Positions 6,303-25,926 of a DNA stretch of 34,543 bases are shown one piece after another; the stretch's first letter is position 1, and the number at the start of each line of letters is the position of its first letter. Source of the stretch: a virus; IMG/VR virus record IMGVR_UViG_3300031673_000260, positions 1 to 34,543 of that record. One strand, written 5' to 3'. The translations under genes were made by a program, and so were the position numbers. The notes under the pieces are model-generated. The model was not told where the DNA came from, ran no database searches, and worked only from the letters and a program-made list of their open reading frames with translations.

Positions 6303-7393
6303 TCCTGTTGACGCTCGTCGACGAGCATCACGACCAGCCCCACGAGGTCCTCCTACCGGAGGGCGTGATCCCGGCGGGGTGGTACCCCACCACGTCGATC
6401 GACGGTCACTATCACGGGGTATGGATCGAGGAGGACGTCGAGGTCGGCGACACGGTCAAGGCCAACACCGACCTCAGCCTCGGGCCGGCGGTGAAGCTTC
6501 GGCGACACGCTCACGAGATCGAGATCACGGCCGTCGAGGTCGAGGTCGAGGGGATGGGGGAGGAGACCGACGTGGACGATCAGGCCGGCGTGGTCGAGGA
6601 GCTCGCGGACGATCGGGCCGCCCAGGCCGAGCCGAAGAGTCACCCCTACCAGATCGAGGTCAAGGTCGCGCGGAGCTCAGTGATAGAGGTCAAGCAAGCG
6701 GACCGGAACGGCGTCCCGGTAGGGATCGTCGCCGGATACCTCTCGACCTGGCAGCCGGACACGGGTGGCCGCTTCGGCGTCCCGGATCAGTTCGTCCCCG
6801 GCGCCTGGCTGGAGACGCTCGCGGAGCATCGAGCTCGCGGAGCTCGCCCGGTCCGCCTGAAGGACCACCACGGCCGGACGGTCGGCGGCTTCCCGATCGA
6901 GTCCGTCCGCGAGGACGAGCGCGGTCTGTTCGGGATCGGCGAGATCAATCTGGAGGTCCAGCAGGGTCGCGAAGCGTTCGCGCTCGCGCGCCAGGGCGTC
7001 ATCTCCGACTTCTCAGTGGGCTACGTCGCCCTCGACGACAAGCTGGAGAAGGACGTCCGGCGGATCTTCCGGGCGACGCTCTTCGAGAGCTCCCTGGTCG
7101 ACGAGCCCGGGAACCAGGGCGCGAACATCGTCGAGGTGAAGGCGATCCAGGAGGCGCTCGCGGCCCAGGCCGGCTTCATCGACATCGCGATCGCGAAGGA
7201 GATGACGGTCCGCGACCTGGAAGCAAAACTCCAGGAGACCGGCGCCTTCAGTCGCTCGGCGGCGCGCTACCTGGCCGGCCGGATCGTGGCCGTCGAGCCC
7301 GCTCCGACCGAGGAGTCGAAGGTGGTGCGCTACGATCCCGAAGTACTGAGCTCAATCTTGCGGGAACTGCAAGAAGCGAAGGCGGCACTCTAA
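6299..7393 (+). CDS. Prohead protease (HK97 family) with N-terminal extra domain
   Basis: The protease domain spans about residues 120-285 of 364. It has the catalytic histidine region VRLKDHHGRTVGG (His190 or His191), the serine region ISDFSVGY (Ser236 or Ser239) and the following LFESSLVDEPGN block. These enzymes mature the capsid by removing the major capsid N-terminal region and themselves. About 115 residues precede the protease: a His-rich, beta-like segment (residues 35-85, GHYHGVWIEEDVEVGDTVKA) and an acidic linker. This is longer than usual for the family. A roughly 80-residue helical tail follows the protease. The ATG at 6299 overlaps the MuF stop (ATGA). Confidence 0.9.
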   Translation: MILLTLVDEHHDQPHEVLLPEGVIPAGWYPTTSIDGHYHGVWIEEDVEVGDTVKANTDLSLGPAVKLRRHAHEIEITAVEVEVEGMGEETDVDDQAGVVEELADDRAAQAEPKSHPYQIEVKVARSSVIEVKQADRNGVPVGIVAGYLSTWQPDTGGRFGVPDQFVPGAWLETLAEHRARGARPVRLKDHHGRTVGGFPIESVREDERGLFGIGEINLEVQQGREAFALARQGVISDFSVGYVALDDKLEKDVRRIFRATLFESSLVDEPGNQGANIVEVKAIQEALAAQAGFIDIAIAKEMTVRDLEAKLQETGAFSRSAARYLAGRIVAVEPAPTEESKVVRYDPEVLSSILRELQEAKAAL

Positions 7394-7479
7394 GCCGCGG
7401 CCGGCGGGAGGTCGGTCCTCGAAGGTCCCGAAAACAACCAACCCCCACATCAACCCCTTCAAAAGGAACACCCCCCAAA

Positions 7480-8769
7480 ATGAGCGAAGCGAACATCGAA
7501 CAGGTCCACGGCGCAGTAAAGGAGCTCCGCGAGGAGCTCAAGGGCGCGCGCGTCGACCACGAGAAGGTCGAGCGGATCAACACGTTCCTCGACTCCGCCG
7601 AGGAAAAGATCTTCCAGCCCCTCACCCAGGCCCGCGAGCTCGCGAAGACGCACGAAGTCGAGAAGAAGGAGCTCATCGAGAAGCTCGAAAGCTCCCAGGC
7701 TTCCGCGACCGAGATCAAGGCCCGCATGGAAGCCCTGGAGATCGTCCTGGCGCGAAGCAACGGCCCCGCGTCCGATCCCGACTACAAGGCGTCGGACGAG
7801 TACAAGGCCCTTCAGGAGTTCGCGATCCGCGGCGAGAGCCGACTGAGCGCAGAACAGAAGCAACTCCTCCGGACGGACTCGGCCACCGAAGGCGGCGTCC
7901 TGGTCCCGACGGAGCTCGACAACGTCATCACGAAGAAGATCACCGAGATCGACCCGATCCGCTCGATCGCACGCGTGAGGACGATCGGCGGGAAGTCGAT
8001 CGAGCTCCCGATCCGGAGCTCGATCCCGGCCGCGACCTACGAGGGCGAGACGGAGGCCGGCGCCGATTCGGTGGCGACCTACGAGGCGTCCACGGTGACG
8101 CCCTTCCGCCAGACCCACACGAGCCCGATCACCCTGGACATGCTCCAGGACTCGGCCTTCGACATGGAGTCCGAGATCGCGATGGACTCGGCCGAGGGCT
8201 TCGCCTTCGGTGAGGGTAACGGCTACGTCCTCGGGACGGGATTGAAACAGCCCCAGGGCTTCGCGAACCACCCGACCATCACGACGAACGACATCACGGC
8301 GGGCGGCAACGGTGGCGGCTTCCGGACCTCGGGGATCGCGGCTGACATCAGCGCGAACTCGATGATCCTCCTGACGGGCGACCTGAAGGCCGGATACGAT
8401 CCGGTCTATGTCTTCAACCGTCGCACCCTGGCGCGGATCCGGACCTTCCGGGCCGACGCGGTGTCCGCGGCGGACGAGGCGGGGTCGTTCCTGTGGGAGC
8501 CGAACATGAACGGCGGGGTCGCTCCGACGATCGGAGGCTTCCCCTACATCCTGGCGAACTCCATGCCGGACATCGCGGCCAACGCGTTCCCGGTGGCCTT
8601 CGGCGACTTCCGCCGGGCCTACACGATCGTCGACCGGATCGGCCTGACGGTGGTGCGCGACGAGTTCACCCTCAAGAAGTCGGGCATCGTGGAGTTCACG
8701 ATGAACCGCTGGAACACCGGCCAGGTGACGCTCCAGGAGCCGATCGTTCTCCTGAAGTGCTCGACCTGA
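7480..8769 (+). CDS. Major capsid protein, HK97 fold
   Basis: This 429-residue protein has the HK97-type layout. The first 95 or so residues are a charged coiled coil (delta domain, acting as built-in scaffold and normally removed by the prohead protease). The shell domain begins near LLRTDSATEGGVLVPTEL and includes IELPIRSS, GTGLKQPQGF and the C-terminal FGDFRRAYTIVDR segment common to the family. An AAAGGA ribosome-binding site precedes the ATG. An 86-base spacer separates it from the protease, and a strong hairpin follows the gene. The cleavage site is not certain but should lie between about residues 95 and 125. Confidence 0.95.
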   Translation: MSEANIEQVHGAVKELREELKGARVDHEKVERINTFLDSAEEKIFQPLTQARELAKTHEVEKKELIEKLESSQASATEIKARMEALEIVLARSNGPASDPDYKASDEYKALQEFAIRGESRLSAEQKQLLRTDSATEGGVLVPTELDNVITKKITEIDPIRSIARVRTIGGKSIELPIRSSIPAATYEGETEAGADSVATYEASTVTPFRQTHTSPITLDMLQDSAFDMESEIAMDSAEGFAFGEGNGYVLGTGLKQPQGFANHPTITTNDITAGGNGGGFRTSGIAADISANSMILLTGDLKAGYDPVYVFNRRTLARIRTFRADAVSAADEAGSFLWEPNMNGGVAPTIGGFPYILANSMPDIAANAFPVAFGDFRRAYTIVDRIGLTVVRDEFTLKKSGIVEFTMNRWNTGQVTLQEPIVLLKCST

Positions 8770-13785: not shown

Positions 13786-14178
13786 ATGCCCCATCAGTCC
13801 ACCAGGAAGCGAGACCGCCGCGCCCAGGTCGGCCCCATGCGCGACCGGATCCGGATCTCGGACCGGGAGATCATCGAGCCGGACTTCGGGAGCGCCGACT
13901 TCCTGGAACAATTCAAGGCCCGCGCGATCGAGCGATGGTCGACGGTCCGGACGACGGCCGGCCGGACGCTCTTCGCCGGGGTAGGCGTCGACGTGGCGAT
14001 CACCCACGAGATCATCATCCGCTACGATGAAGGGGTGAGCTCCGAGTCCTGGATCATCCTCCAGGACGAGACCCGGCTCGACGTCGTCCAGGTCGAAGAC
14101 CTCGACGAGCGTAACGAGTGGATGGTCCTCCTATGTACCGACCGGGGCGACAAGAGCTTCGAGGCTTCCCAGGCATGA
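13786..14178 (+). CDS. Head closure / head-tail joining protein
   Basis: This 130-residue protein has the pattern of the phage head-tail joining family (SPP1 gp16, lambda gpFII-type fold): a short basic N-terminus, a central strand series TLFAGVGVDVAITHEIIIRY, then SWIILQDETRLDVVQVEDLDERNEWMVLLC. It docks under the adaptor ring to retain the packaged DNA. In most phages it directly follows the gp6-like adaptor. Here 3.5 kb of other structural genes intervene. The stop overlaps the next ATG (ATGA). Confidence 0.75.
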   Translation: MPHQSTRKRDRRAQVGPMRDRIRISDREIIEPDFGSADFLEQFKARAIERWSTVRTTAGRTLFAGVGVDVAITHEIIIRYDEGVSSESWIILQDETRLDVVQVEDLDERNEWMVLLCTDRGDKSFEASQA

Positions 14179-14654
14179 GCCGAGTCAGGATCGACCTCAG
14201 CATCAACGGCGAGGGCGAGCGACACCTCGCGACCATCAAGCGGAGCGGGAGGATCACCGCCGCCGCCGTCCGCCGCGCGTGGTTCGAGTTCGCCGGGGAC
14301 CTCCACCGGGAGGCCAATAAGGAGATCCTCGCCAAGAACAAGACCGGCCGGGTCTACTGGATCCGGACCCGGGGCGGCCGGCGCCGCCGACACATCGCGT
14401 CCGCGCCCGGCCAGACCCACGCGAACCGGACCGGTCGGCTCCGGAAGGCGCTCTCCTGGAGGGTGCGCGGCGTGGTCGGCCTCGACTTCGGCTACGGGAT
14501 CGCCGCGAGCTCGCCGAAGTATGCGTCCTTCGTCGAGTTCGGGACTCGCAAGATGGAGGCCCGGCCGAGCATCGGGAACGCGGTCCGGGCGGTCACATCC
14601 CGCACGGTCGAGCGTGAGTACTCCGACTCGCTGACCAGGGCGTTCGGGAAGTAG
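14175..14654 (+). CDS. HK97 gp10-like neck / tail completion protein
   Basis: This 159-residue protein begins with a strand, then a helical region (RAWFEFAGDLHREANKEIL), a basic loop (RTRGGRRRRHIASAPGQ), RTGRLRKALSWRV, and the hallmark segment YASFVEFGTRKMEARPSIGNA near residues 115-135. The FVEFGT...RP motif is characteristic of HK97 gp10-like proteins, which act at the head-tail interface. It is coupled to the head-closure gene by an ATGA overlap and ends one base before the next start. Confidence 0.85.
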   Translation: MSRVRIDLSINGEGERHLATIKRSGRITAAAVRRAWFEFAGDLHREANKEILAKNKTGRVYWIRTRGGRRRRHIASAPGQTHANRTGRLRKALSWRVRGVVGLDFGYGIAASSPKYASFVEFGTRKMEARPSIGNAVRAVTSRTVEREYSDSLTRAFGK

Positions 14655-14655
14655 C

Positions 14656-16539
14656 GTGCGAGCTCTCGACGTCGTCTCCAGGCTCGCGTCGGTCCTCCCG
14701 ACGAAGACCCCCTATTTCACGAGGACCGTCCCGGTCTCCGCGCTCACCGGCTCCGGGACCGTCATGACGGCCGTGTGCGGGGAGAAGCACAACCTCGACC
14801 CCGGCGACGTGGTCGTGATCCTGGGCGCGGTCGTCCCGATCTCTATCACCTCCCTGGTCCGGGTCGGGACCGTCGGGACCCTGGTCCTGGCCTCGAAGCA
14901 TGACCTCACTCCGGCGGTCGCGACGACCGTCACGATCAGCGGAGCGACCGAGGCGGACTTCAACGGGACCTTCGAGATCACGAACATCATCGACAACCTG
15001 ACGATCCAGTTCACCATGCCGGACTCCGGCGCCGTGACCGCCACCGGCTCGCCCGTCCTGGAGGGCGCCGAGTCGGCGCTCCGCCAGTTCAACGGCGCCT
15101 ATGCGGTCCTCGAAACACCGACCGAGTCGACCTTCACTTTCGCCCACGCCCTCGCGGCGACACTCCCCACGCCGATCGGGACCATCACCGCGCGGGTCAA
15201 GCCGAGGATCTCCGCCACGGCCACGCCCGACCGGATCATCCAGGTCTACACCGAACAGGAGACCAATGACCTCTGGGCCTTCGTCGTCCTGGGCGACGTC
15301 GTCTCCTCGAAGAGCCGGGCGATCAAGAGCGACGGGGTCGATCGCCTCCAGTCGAACAACTACTATCGGCAACAGATCATCCAGCCCTTCACCCTTTACG
15401 TCCTCATGCCGACCGCGGGCTCGGTCGCCGGCCGCCCGGCCCGAGACCTGGCCGAGGATCTATTCCAGCCGATCTGCCAGTCGCTCCTCTTCAAGGCGTT
15501 CGACTCTCGCCTCTATTCCGGGGCCGAGTCGAACCTCGTCTTCGACTCCCACGGGACCTCCAGCTACGACACGTCGGTCTACGTCCACGCCTACAACTTC
15601 GAGCAAACGGTCGATCTCAACTTCGAGGACACCGTCGGCCCGGACCTGGACGTCGCCTTCGAGTGTATCGACCTCACCCTCACCCCCGAGGTCGACGGCG
15701 GGACGGGCCTCGCCGTTCTGACTGCGTCCGCGCTCACCCTCGACGAGGCCGCCGTCGCGGTCACGCCCGCGCCGTCCTTCCCGCCCCAGACCCAGAGCCT
15801 CCACCTGAATTTGAGCTCCGGGACGATCGAGGTCGTCAGGGACAAGACCGACAAGACGGTCGGGATCGCCGACGCGTGGACGGTCGCAATGTGGGTGCAG
15901 CCGAAGGCCCGCGCGCTCACGGCGAGTGGGACGCTCTTCATGATGCAGGGTGGCACGGTCGCGAACGGGATCCGGATTACCACGAACGGCAGCCAAACGA
16001 ACGACCCGATCCAGATCGAGACATGGTCGCCGACGACGGCGGTCATCAAGGATTACGAGTACGAGTCCGTCCAGACCGAGGACGAGTGGCTCTTCATGGT
16101 CTTCACCTGGGATGGCCCGACCGACACGCTCCTCGCCTACTTCGACGGCGCCCTGGTCGCCGCGACCACGATGAACTCGGACAACGCGGGCACCATGACC
16201 GACATCGTCCGGGAGATCGCGATCGGCGCCAACCGCTCGACGACCCCGGGCGACGGCGCGCACTACTACTACCACTCGGCCGGGATGTGGAGCTCGGTCC
16301 TGACGGGCGACGAGGTCGCCGAGCTCTTCGCCGGGGCGGCCGGGATCGACTGGAACGAGGACTCCGGGGACTATGCGAGCTCGGCCAGCCTGGTCCACTG
16401 GTGGCGGTTCGGGTTCGACGACACCGACCTCACTTCGGTCTGTTTCGACTACGTCGACGGCGGCTCCTCCTTCGACCTCTCGGCCGACGCGGTCTCGGTC
16501 TCGGTCCCGGCCGACCTGGTCACCGCGAGCCCCGGCTAG
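14656..16539 (+). CDS. Tail-terminator-like (Mu gp37 position) protein with Ig-like insert and LamG lectin domain
   Basis: This GTG-initiated protein has 627 residues, about three times the usual size for this position. The first 20 and about residues 140-345 look like a tail completion/terminator protein (LQSNNYYRQQIIQPFTLYVLMP, then a helix AGRPARDLAEDLFQPICQSLL). Residues 30-135 form an inserted Ig-like or beta module with HNLDPGDVVVI, HDLTPAVATTVTISGATEADFNG and TATGSP. Residues about 380-605 match LamG/concanavalin A-type sandwiches (AWTVAMWVQPK, EDEWLFMVFTWDGPTDTLLAYFDGALV, AIGANRS, MWSSVLTGDEVAELF). The terminator normally caps the tail tube and joins it to the neck. The lectin-like domain would project from that ring. 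The role is inferred from position and domain pattern. Confidence 0.75.
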   Translation: MRALDVVSRLASVLPTKTPYFTRTVPVSALTGSGTVMTAVCGEKHNLDPGDVVVILGAVVPISITSLVRVGTVGTLVLASKHDLTPAVATTVTISGATEADFNGTFEITNIIDNLTIQFTMPDSGAVTATGSPVLEGAESALRQFNGAYAVLETPTESTFTFAHALAATLPTPIGTITARVKPRISATATPDRIIQVYTEQETNDLWAFVVLGDVVSSKSRAIKSDGVDRLQSNNYYRQQIIQPFTLYVLMPTAGSVAGRPARDLAEDLFQPICQSLLFKAFDSRLYSGAESNLVFDSHGTSSYDTSVYVHAYNFEQTVDLNFEDTVGPDLDVAFECIDLTLTPEVDGGTGLAVLTASALTLDEAAVAVTPAPSFPPQTQSLHLNLSSGTIEVVRDKTDKTVGIADAWTVAMWVQPKARALTASGTLFMMQGGTVANGIRITTNGSQTNDPIQIETWSPTTAVIKDYEYESVQTEDEWLFMVFTWDGPTDTLLAYFDGALVAATTMNSDNAGTMTDIVREIAIGANRSTTPGDGAHYYYHSAGMWSSVLTGDEVAELFAGAAGIDWNEDSGDYASSASLVHWWRFGFDDTDLTSVCFDYVDGGSSFDLSADAVSVSVPADLVTASPG

Positions 16540-16599: not shown

Positions 16600-16836
16600 A
16601 TGAACCAGGTCAAGATCCGCGTGAAGAGCGCCGGGATCCGCGGCTTCCAGCCCGGCCAGATCGTCCGCGCCGAAGCGGACGAACACGGGACTCCTCTGGA
16701 TCCGACCTGGCGCCGACGCCTCCGAGACGCGAGACATGACGATTGTTGTGAGCTCGTGGTCGAGCAACCCACCGAGGCGCCGCGGCGTCACAAGTCGAAG
16801 AACATCCCCGTCCAGGACGGGACCCCCGAGGAGTAG
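16600..16836 (+). CDS. DUF2635-like small tail-module protein
   Basis: This 78-residue protein occupies the Mu gp38 position between the gp37-like protein and the sheath. It shows the family pattern: a short strand start (MNQVKIRVKSAG), a PGQIV turn, GTPLDPTWRRRLRD with the conserved Trp-Arg-Arg, and an exposed charged tail. The function in Mu-like phages is unknown. The 60 bases before it hold no gene, and ribosome-binding sequence is weak (AAGG about 10 bases upstream). Confidence 0.7.
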   Translation: MNQVKIRVKSAGIRGFQPGQIVRAEADEHGTPLDPTWRRRLRDARHDDCCELVVEQPTEAPRRHKSKNIPVQDGTPEE

Positions 16837-16842
16837 ACCCAG

Positions 16843-18408
16843 ATGAACGAGATCTCCCAGCCGTCCGTCACGCTCACCCTGGCGAACGCGAACCAGACCG
16901 TCCAGAACACCGCCCAGCGGGTTCTCGTCGTCGGTCAGCAGACCGCCGCCGCGACGTCCACCTCGGGCGCCCTGGTCGAGAACGTCGGAGACGACTTCGA
17001 CACGCTCTTCGGAGCTCGCTCCCAGATCGCCGGCATGGTCCGGGCCTACAAGAAGGTCAACCCCGTCGTCAAGATCGACGCGATCCCCCTCGACGACAAC
17101 GGCTCGGGCGTTCCCCGCGTGGTCGACTTCACCCTCACCGGAACCGCGACCGCCGCCGGGACCGTGACCCTGGTCCTCGGCTCGGAGCTCGATCACTCGA
17201 TCGTGGTCCCCGTCGCTTCAGGTGACACGGCCGCCACGGTCGCCGCAGCCATCACGGCCGCCGCCGCCCTCGACACGAAGGCCCCCTTCACGGTGGGTAA
17301 CGTCTCCGCCGCCGTAACGGTCACGGCCGCGAATGACGGGACGGTCGCGAACGACCTGGGCGTCGAGCTCGTGGTCGACGTCGCCGGGATCACGATTTCG
17401 GTCGACATCGTCCAGACGACGGCAGGCTCCACCGACCCGACGCTCACCTCCGTCTTCGACGTGGTCCCCTCGACCCGTCGCTACCAGGGGGTCATCTGGC
17501 CCTACGCCGCGACCACGGTGGTCGCCGCCTTCCTCTCCCCCCGCTTCAACCCGACGAATGACGTCCTCGACGGCGTGGCGATCGTGACCATCCAGGACAC
17601 GGCGTCCGCGGCCCAGACCACGCTCGACGCCCTGAACGACCAGAACCTCGTCGTCTTCGTGGACGAACAGATCACCGAGGACACGGCTGGCGCCACGACC
17701 CAGTACCTCGGGCCGGCCCAGAACGAGGCCAGCTATGTCAAGTCGGCGCTCTTCGCGGGGATCCGCGCGCTCCGCCTCACCGAGGACCAGGTCATCACGA
17801 ACTTCCTCACGAGTTCGGCCAGCCTGGATCAGTTCGGCGGGCCCGCCCTGGCGTCGCTCCCCTACTTCAACACCCCGATGGCGTATCTCCCCCTGGTCAA
17901 GGCCGGCCGTGGCTTCACCCGCCAGGAGATCGAGGACATCCTCACCTCCGGCGGCGCGGTCATGGGCGTCAACGTGGCCGGGAACGGCTCGCTCGTGGGC
18001 GAGGTCCCGACGACCTTCAAGACCGACTCGGCCGGGAACCCGGACGTGACCTGGAAGTTCCTCAACTACGTCGACACGGCGAGCCAGGTCCGGGAGTACT
18101 TCTTCAACAACCTCCGCGCCCGGTTCGCCCAGAGTCGCCTCACCGAGGGCGCCGCGAGTCGCGGCCGCGACATGGCGAACGCACCGATCATCGGGGCCTA
18201 TCTCGACAAGCTCTACCTGGACCTCGCGGGTCCCGACTTCGTCCTGGTCCAGGACGGCGAGACGGCGATCAAGTACTTCAAGGACAACCGGACCGTCACG
18301 ATCGACCTCGCCGCCGGCAAGGCCACGATCACCGCCCTCATCCCCATCGTCACCCAACTCCGGACGATCATCGCGACCCTCAAGGTCTCGTTCTCGACCG
18401 ACGCCTAA
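16843..18408 (+). CDS. Tail sheath protein (Mu gpL-like)
   Basis: This 521-residue protein forms the contractile sheath. Features consistent with Mu gpL-like sheaths are the N-terminal VTLTLANANQTVQNTAQRVLVVGQ, a beta-rich protruding domain (about 90-190, TGTATAAGTVTLVLGS), the SLPYFNTPMA segment, and the C-terminal FLNYVDTASQVREYFFNNLRARF followed by a final strand series ending LKVSFSTDA. It sits directly before the tube gene as in Mu. The sheath shows the phage is a myovirus. Confidence 0.9.
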   Translation: MNEISQPSVTLTLANANQTVQNTAQRVLVVGQQTAAATSTSGALVENVGDDFDTLFGARSQIAGMVRAYKKVNPVVKIDAIPLDDNGSGVPRVVDFTLTGTATAAGTVTLVLGSELDHSIVVPVASGDTAATVAAAITAAAALDTKAPFTVGNVSAAVTVTAANDGTVANDLGVELVVDVAGITISVDIVQTTAGSTDPTLTSVFDVVPSTRRYQGVIWPYAATTVVAAFLSPRFNPTNDVLDGVAIVTIQDTASAAQTTLDALNDQNLVVFVDEQITEDTAGATTQYLGPAQNEASYVKSALFAGIRALRLTEDQVITNFLTSSASLDQFGGPALASLPYFNTPMAYLPLVKAGRGFTRQEIEDILTSGGAVMGVNVAGNGSLVGEVPTTFKTDSAGNPDVTWKFLNYVDTASQVREYFFNNLRARFAQSRLTEGAASRGRDMANAPIIGAYLDKLYLDLAGPDFVLVQDGETAIKYFKDNRTVTIDLAAGKATITALIPIVTQLRTIIATLKVSFSTDA

Positions 18409-24606: not shown

Positions 24607-25926
24607 GTGCCCCTCACCACGCCCGACTCAGCCAGCGAGATCATCGACCGCGCCGTCGCCGACGTCGAGCTCGCCCTGGCCCCGGTCGGCGGGAAGCCGG
24701 CCCTCAAGAACTCCTGGCTCGCGGCGCTCATCAACGCGGTCGCCCAGCGGGTCTTCGACTTCTACATCGCCCTCGACCGGGCCGCCCTCGAAGCCCTCCC
24801 CGACACGGCCGTCGCCAACCTGGAGCGGTGGGCCGCGATCTACGCAATCCTCCGGACGCCGGGAACCACGTCGAGCGGGATGATCGTCGCCCAGGGCTCG
24901 ACGGGATCAGCCATCGCGGACGGGACCTTCCTCGCGAGCGGGGACGGGACGCGCTACCAGACGGTCGGCTCCGCCGTGATCGCGGTGACGGCCGGCCCCG
25001 CCGTCTCGACGCTCACGAGCTCGGCCGGCGTCGCGACCATGAACTTCGCGAGCTCCCACGGCCTCGTCGACGGGGTCCGGATCACGGTCACGGGGACGAC
25101 CGAGACCCAATACAACGTCACGAACGTCGCGGCCACGGTCGTCGACACCGACACGATCACCTACCCGATCAGCGGAACCCCGAGCTCCCCGGCGACTGGC
25201 TCGCCCGCGGCCTCGTGGAAGATCGCCTCCATCCTGGTCGAGTCCGTCGATCCCGGCGTGGACGAGGACCAGGTCTTCAACACCGCCCTCCGCTTCGAGA
25301 GTCCGATCGTAGGCGTGGACGACGTCGCCCGGGTGGACGAGGACGAGATCGGCGGCGGCGCCGACCGGGAGACCGACGCGGCCCTCCGCGCCCGGCTCCT
25401 GGACCGGATCCAGAACCCGATCGCCCACTTCTCGGCGACCGAGATCATCGCGGTCGCGAAAGGGATCGCGGGCGTGACGCGGGTCTTCGTCCAGGAGATC
25501 ACCCCGGCCGTCGGCCAGGTCACGGTCTACTTCATGCGGGACAACGACATCAGCCCGATCCCCTCAGGCACCGAGGTCGCGGCGGTCAAGGCCGCCCTGG
25601 ACGCGATCCGGCCCGCCACGAGTGACACCGACGACGTCATCGTCCTCGCACCGACGGCGGTCCCGACGAACTTCACCTTCACGGCGATCAGCCCGGACAC
25701 GGCCTCGATGAGGACGGCGATCGAGGCGAACCTGGACGAGCTCTTCTCCGAGCGGACCGAGATCGGGGTAGACGTGACCGAGGACTCCTTCCGGTCGGCG
25801 ATCTTCAACACGGTCGACACCGAGACCGGCGAGCGCCTGGTCTCCTTCACGCTCTCCGCCCCGGCGGCGGACATCACGATCTCCGCGGGCGAGATCGGGA
25901 CCCTCGGGACGGTGGCCTTTCCGTGA
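24607..25926 (+). CDS. Baseplate J-like wedge protein (Mu gp47-like) with Ig-like insert
   Basis: This GTG-initiated, 439-residue protein has the Baseplate_J pattern: a helical N-terminus (DRAVADVELALAP, NLERWAAIYAILRTPGTTSSG), an ETDAALRARLLDRIQNP motif (residues about 255-270), GVTRVFVQEITPAVGQVTVYFMRDN and a helical C-terminus. Residues 131-205 form an extra Ig-like module (HGLVDGVRITVTGTTETQYN to ATGSPAA) related to that in the terminator-like protein at 14656-16539. It assembles the baseplate wedge ring. It overlaps the next gene by GTGA. Confidence 0.9.
   Translation: MPLTTPDSASEIIDRAVADVELALAPVGGKPALKNSWLAALINAVAQRVFDFYIALDRAALEALPDTAVANLERWAAIYAILRTPGTTSSGMIVAQGSTGSAIADGTFLASGDGTRYQTVGSAVIAVTAGPAVSTLTSSAGVATMNFASSHGLVDGVRITVTGTTETQYNVTNVAATVVDTDTITYPISGTPSSPATGSPAASWKIASILVESVDPGVDEDQVFNTALRFESPIVGVDDVARVDEDEIGGGADRETDAALRARLLDRIQNPIAHFSATEIIAVAKGIAGVTRVFVQEITPAVGQVTVYFMRDNDISPIPSGTEVAAVKAALDAIRPATSDTDDVIVLAPTAVPTNFTFTAISPDTASMRTAIEANLDELFSERTEIGVDVTEDSFRSAIFNTVDTETGERLVSFTLSAPAADITISAGEIGTLGTVAFP

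Follow-up and report, generated by a model that had tools for sequence, protein, structure and literature searches.

Why a protein encoded at the position of Mu gp37 should end in a lectin-type LamG domain, and where on the virion such a domain would be displayed, is the question raised by the gene at 14656-16539 of the window. The window, to which all coordinates refer, is a stretch of 34,543 nucleotides (IMGVR_UViG_3300031673_000260, positions 1-34,543) from an uncultivated Mu-type contractile-tail phage. The gene opens with a GTG start 1 bp past the Neck1 stop and runs without internal stops (Table 1). Gene order in this part of the window is head closure Hc1, Neck1, terminator, a 78-aa gene, tail sheath and tape measure (PF10145, phrog_991), with relatives in the identical order, and Mu-type baseplate genes (DNA_circ_N, GpP, Baseplate J and Gp48) lie farther downstream. 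The tail is Mu-type contractile and the terminator gene occupies the Mu gp37 slot; the ORF coordinates and the gene order bear out the 627-residue product that the first-pass annotation had placed there. At the position of the small gene, DUF2635 was matched weakly and in two relatives only. Elsewhere in the window, the match of the ORF at 6379-8769 to phrog_10 (major head protein) begins only at residue 379 of 796, so that about 375 residues come before the part that matches the capsid, possibly a fused protease or scaffold.

Table 1. Features of the terminator gene and its neighbours in the window
Feature	Coordinates	Strand	Evidence
Head closure Hc1 / head completion protein	13786..14178	+	PF05521 49.2 bits; phrog_25 E 7.8e-13
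Neck1 / HK97-gp10-like tail completion protein	14118..14654	+	phrog_5 E 3.1e-10; TIGR01725 over cut-off
Tail terminator with double barrel and LamG, whole gene, 627 aa	14656..16539	+	ORF, homology, models
Terminator fold, segment one, residues 1-22, N-terminal helix	14656..14721	+	AF2 model, VIA-align to Mu/T5/lambda terminators
Outer FCCH-like beta-barrel, first half, residues 23-61	14722..14838	+	FCCH match, model strands, repeat test
Inner barrel copy nested in outer, residues 62-138	14839..15069	+	repeat test; phrog_9998 E 8.9e-8
Outer barrel, second half, residues 139-183	15070..15204	+	model, FCCH match, repeat test
Terminator fold, main segment, residues 184-330	15205..15645	+	VIA-align structural matches
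C-terminal arm, residues 331-368, '..DVAFECIDLTLTPE...LTLDEAAV'	15646..15759	+	homologue alignment; analogy to Mu gp37 and E217 gp29
LamG/pentraxin-like concanavalin-fold domain, residues 384-627	15805..16536	+	PF13385; fold match
Small 78-aa gene, Mu gp38 position, terminator-sheath gap	16600..16836	+	position conserved among relatives
Tail sheath	16843..18408	+	phrog_165 E 2.2e-46

The whole protein was modelled by AF2 with 11 homologues as input, and pLDDT was mostly 80-95 over residues 1-330 with the exception of a few loops. When this monomer model was compared with known structures, as the first-pass annotation had proposed, the best PDB matches of the core by VIA-align were the tail terminators of Mu (9khy, Z 13.3), T5 (p142, 12.7) and lambda (gpU, 11.6), and further terminator matches were those of Agrobacterium phage Milano (11.6), pyocin R2 (11.5) and T4 (gp15, 9.8). 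The terminator fold previously assigned to residues 140-345 is thus present, but its boundaries had to be redrawn, as the fold is discontinuous and made of residues 1-22 and then 184-330. A PDB sequence search with the whole protein and with the core returned zero matches; PF23840 (Phage_tail_terminator) was not matched by the window protein and gave 24.6 bits, under the cut-off of 27, in the relative P0009; and tblastn against 50,697 phage records found no match for the terminator, the P0002 homologue, the sheath or the LamG protein of contig L097. The closest whole-core structural match in BFVD was A0A6J5LRT3 (E 2.3e-29), an uncharacterised and unannotated protein of an uncultured phage, which shares the core structure and, at 342 aa, has no space for a LamG domain. 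Based on the fold, synteny and conserved core, the identification of the gene product as a Mu gp37-type tail terminator, which would form the hexameric ring capping tube and sheath, is well supported. Its length, earlier described as about three times the usual, is 3.6 times that of the 174-residue Mu chain but only about 1.7 times that of its own family (around 363 aa).

Between the two segments of the terminator fold lies a beta-barrel region, residues 21-183 of which matched the FCCH barrel of UBA6 (ubiquitin E1; Z 10.9, 1.8 Å over 77 residues) and also the K1F endosialidase barrel. This insert had been taken for an Ig-like domain spanning residues 30-135; its best matches are the E1 FCCH and endosialidase barrels, Ig is absent among the matches listed, the Ig-like label thus finds no support, and the actual span is about 23-183. 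From strand order and sequence, the region is a barrel within a barrel, where residues 62-138 are nested inside an outer barrel formed by residues 23-61 and 139-183. In the 72-row alignment, the two barrel copies aligned to each other with an hhalign E-value of 8.1e-16, compared with control values of 0.79 against the terminator part and 0.17 against a reversed profile. The double barrel is common to the relatives (11 aligned; 72-row alignment), which rules out the insert as a peculiarity of the window phage and leaves the LamG alone as the extra part. In the related terminators of L007, L074, L075, L076 and L078, an insertion of about 160 aa was found within the inner barrel, and that of L078 had no match in Pfam and PHROG. 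The phrog_9998 barrel was also detected in the Baseplate J-like gene of the window (24607-25926, match at 24997-25230, E 2.8e-12), placing one barrel family at both tail ends.

Contractile-tail terminators typically have a long C-terminal arm. Among 72 distinct homologues of at least 300 aa, the window protein included, most of the 71 others are 345-377 aa long and the arm is the end of the protein, with a family consensus of '..VAFRDIDL....GT...TADIDLDDEPL'; in the window, the LamG comes directly after the arm. In Mu, the extended gp37 C-terminus makes a beta-sheet together with sheath domain I in the last ring and becomes stretched upon contraction (PMC11915804), and in E217 the C-terminal extension of the terminator gp29 projects outward as far as the sheath (PMC10329688). 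By analogy with these two proteins, the conserved arm would be a strand gripping the last sheath ring.

A LamG domain that begins right after a presumed sheath-binding arm could itself be a structural clamp on the first sheath ring or on neighbouring terminator subunits, stabilising the neck-sheath joint without sugar binding. In phage 812, an additional beta-sandwich of the terminator acts as a clamp that presses sheath domain I onto the tube, and decoration proteins of the neck are thought to reinforce joints (PMC12886913). A search with the sheath retrieved 14 further contigs, and the sheath is 46-68% identical, among the relatives listed, in phages whose terminator carries no LamG. Since these conserved sheaths work without the domain, a clamp seems unneeded.

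The LamG assignment itself was supported by both sequence and fold. PF13385 matched at 15856-16320 with 42.1-42.3 bits against a cut-off of 27.6. In the whole-protein AF2 model, the LamG part had a pLDDT below 50 and was effectively unmodelled, so the domain was folded alone (residues 367-627, four homologues), which gave a model of moderate confidence with a pLDDT of 58 and a pTM of 0.70. The closest PDB matches of model residues 18-261, corresponding to residues 384-627 of the protein, were PAPP-A (Z 11.4), the NP1 pentraxin (10.7), a Limulus SAP-like protein (10.6) and CRP (10.3), and the LamG profile also found a weak pentraxin match in the PDB by sequence (E 0.038). The LamG/concanavalin-like domain foreseen at residues 380-605 is therefore confirmed, by a Pfam match over the cut-off and by a ConA-like jelly-roll fold, over residues 384-627. 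Many LamG domains bind proteins or serve structure only. The nearest relatives of this one, at 30-35% identity, came from only three other contigs: in L097 (266 kb) and L102, a standalone LamG protein adjoins a collagen-like fibre gene and a fibre-like gene, respectively, and in L112 the LamG is the C-terminal part of a gene that follows a tape-measure-like gene. A D-x-x-GTMT loop is conserved across the four relatives. The domain looks like a module that is passed between virion proteins, and its standalone relatives beside fibre genes in other phages are a further point against a clamp. The name 'botulinum neurotoxin type A' given to a LamG-like protein of Pseudanabaena phage Pam2 (ON014754.1, 58006-58278) was most likely assigned in error, through the shared lectin fold.

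We then asked whether other members of the family carry C-terminal additions. The first-pass annotation had pointed to related phages as the place to look for the same fusion, and the exact fusion, at 100% protein identity, is present in a second contig, L003 (IMGVR_UViG_3300031578_000898), which is 99.93% identical to the window in nucleotides over 12,214 bp. As L003 carries the identical protein and differs at 9 positions in this alignment, a chimeric assembly confined to a single contig was ruled out. A search with the core profile yielded 80 viral loci and 3 MAG loci, in several of which a different module follows the arm. L032 has one LamG-like domain there and L055 has two, these post-arm stretches matching phrog_10356 with E-values of 6.8e-11 and 8.3e-42, respectively, and the next ORF of L055 is a third LamG-like protein (PF13385, 36.5 bits). 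In L060 (2900-4888) and L057, a post-arm stretch of about 300 aa resembles part of the GH42 beta-galactosidases (12.7 bits against a cut-off of 21) and is perhaps a glycoside hydrolase. In L017 (1206-3282) and L056, the terminator ORF overlaps the next ORF by 8 bases, and that ORF carries a Big_1/invasin domain; it opens with the terminator arm motif, DLDEVPF, which suggests either a gene that has been split or a protein made by frameshifting. In cyanophage KBS-S-2A (NC_020854.1, 30845-31606; L098:4941-5702), a stand-alone relative of the L055 LamG-like repeats is encoded immediately ahead of head closure Hc1, within the cluster of neck genes.

In a tree of the family, the nearest neighbours of every C-terminally extended protein lack an extension, and the window LamG profile gave no alignment with the L055/L032 profile (E 0.48), which argues for separate LamG acquisitions in the window lineage and in L055/L032. 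From the extension-free sisters and the unalignable LamG profiles, we read the C-terminal modules as several independent gains. The terminator C-terminus thus recurs in the sequences as a docking point for differing accessory modules, and may be one in function as well.

This recurrence also bears on whether the LamG has any selected function. It might be an accidental, nearly neutral fusion or a recombination passenger at a tolerant C-terminus: the exact fusion occurs in one viral lineage only (the window and L003, 99.93% identical), and this C-terminus evidently tolerates appendages. We nevertheless consider a passenger quite improbable, given that two contigs keep 262 codons in an unbroken frame, that the GC and GC3 contents of the LamG (0.676 and 0.954) are in line with those of the remaining structural module (0.665 and 0.923), and that different, mostly lectin- or adhesin-like modules recur at one point, which random capture would not lead one to expect. 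The same set of unrelated post-arm modules, including the invasin-like ORF and the possible hydrolase, better suits surface interaction than a structural clamp, which we regard as rather unlikely overall.

LamG domains are capable of protein binding, and the domain could accordingly be an attachment or folding site for a partner virion protein such as a whisker, a collar fibre or a fibre tip. Whiskers are present at the neck of T4 (wac annotation) and of phage 812 (PMC12886913). No whisker-like gene was found beside the terminator, and most relatives of the same gene order have neither a module nor an extra gene there, which makes partner binding very unlikely.

With a rough probability of 0.57, we propose that the protein is a terminator with a lineage-acquired LamG, a sheath-gripping arm and up to six outward ancillary glycan-binding domains, for which the C-terminus would be the docking point. 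The window lineage has acquired the LamG at the terminator C-terminus, next to an arm that, as in Mu and E217, would pair with sheath domain I in the last ring. With the domain placed immediately behind this arm, as many as six LamG copies would lie on the outer face of the tail where neck and sheath meet, and they may shift with the arm upon sheath contraction. Judging from the fold family and the lactococcal precedent described below, the LamG is most likely a low-affinity, avidity-driven glycan binder of capsule, exopolysaccharide or matrix, and such binding could keep the particle near the cell ahead of engagement by the Mu-type baseplate and fibres. Being fused to a tail terminator, the domain is probably displayed at the tail top, as the first-pass annotation had suggested; the fold, the synteny and the conserved arm before the LamG speak for this placement, and the recurrent unrelated C-terminal modules lend support to the idea of a display site.

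Other domains have been gained independently at this position in several relatives, so that the neck gives the impression of a mount for accessory surface-binding parts. We give even odds to the broader proposal that, in this widespread family of Mu-type phages, the arm is a general display socket onto which modules, some lectin-fold, some adhesin-like and some perhaps enzymatic, are exchanged in the manner of fibre tips. Should this be true, the neck would give contractile tails a second, modular point of interaction with the host. Host-range studies mostly concern fibres and baseplates. Should the LamG module bind, the tail top would share in early reversible contact or matrix retention through a fixed ring of at most six copies. 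A module after an LDDEPL arm provides a simple sequence rule for finding more cases, and, as different modules keep appearing at a single conserved position, the idea of the neck as an accessory adhesion site can be tested directly.

Among public profiles, positions 4-106 of phrog_10356 are Hc1-like and are hit by the window Hc1, its positions 379-626 are LamG-like and are hit by L055/L032, and the last 150 positions of phrog_347 ('tail terminator') match LamG-type proteins. The core of the window terminator is matched by neither of the two, and the likeness is one of profile architecture only; PHROGs may already contain, unnamed, neck proteins fused to lectin-fold domains. That phrog_347 represents a known LamG-bearing terminator of T4-like phages was rejected, since it found no match in T4, P-SSM2, S-PM2 or HTVC008M.

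Extra domains on terminators are already known (PMC11784142), as are carbohydrate-binding decorations of the neck and tail. Mycobacteriophage Douge displays many surface domains, several of them host-binding (PMC13033339), and Psychrobacter phage Y8A has a Mu gp37 gene with a separate, unfused PF13385 gene five genes later (PMC10434257). A LamG on the terminator and the reuse of its C-terminus for different modules were not found in the incompletely covered literature that was searched, and these appear to be the new elements. Compared with Mu gp37 (PDB 9khy, 9lj8; PMC11915804), the window protein shares the core fold, the pre-sheath gene position and, presumably, the long C-terminal arm, but the 174 residues of gp37 leave no room for the nested barrel or the LamG. 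Staphylococcus phage 812 gp99 is likewise the terminator of a contractile tail and bears an extra beta-sandwich domain on its outside, but that domain clamps the sheath and, in the accessible text, is not described as a LamG or lectin (PMC12886913). In lactococcal 936 phages, carbohydrate-binding modules are carried on the neck passage structure, the tail tube and Dit; those of the neck and tail tube bind host cells, and a GFP fusion of the neck module binds weakly (PMC6669499). The lactococcal neck passage structure, a separate collar protein with a BppU-like N-terminus, was ruled out as the identity of the window protein, the N-terminal part of which has the terminator fold. The necks of the 936 and P335 siphophages nevertheless resemble the present case in bearing a glycan-binding-type module as an optional virion decoration, with the difference that their BppA-type modules are on a separate collar protein (PMC6669499), whereas the window LamG is on the terminator of a contractile tail itself.
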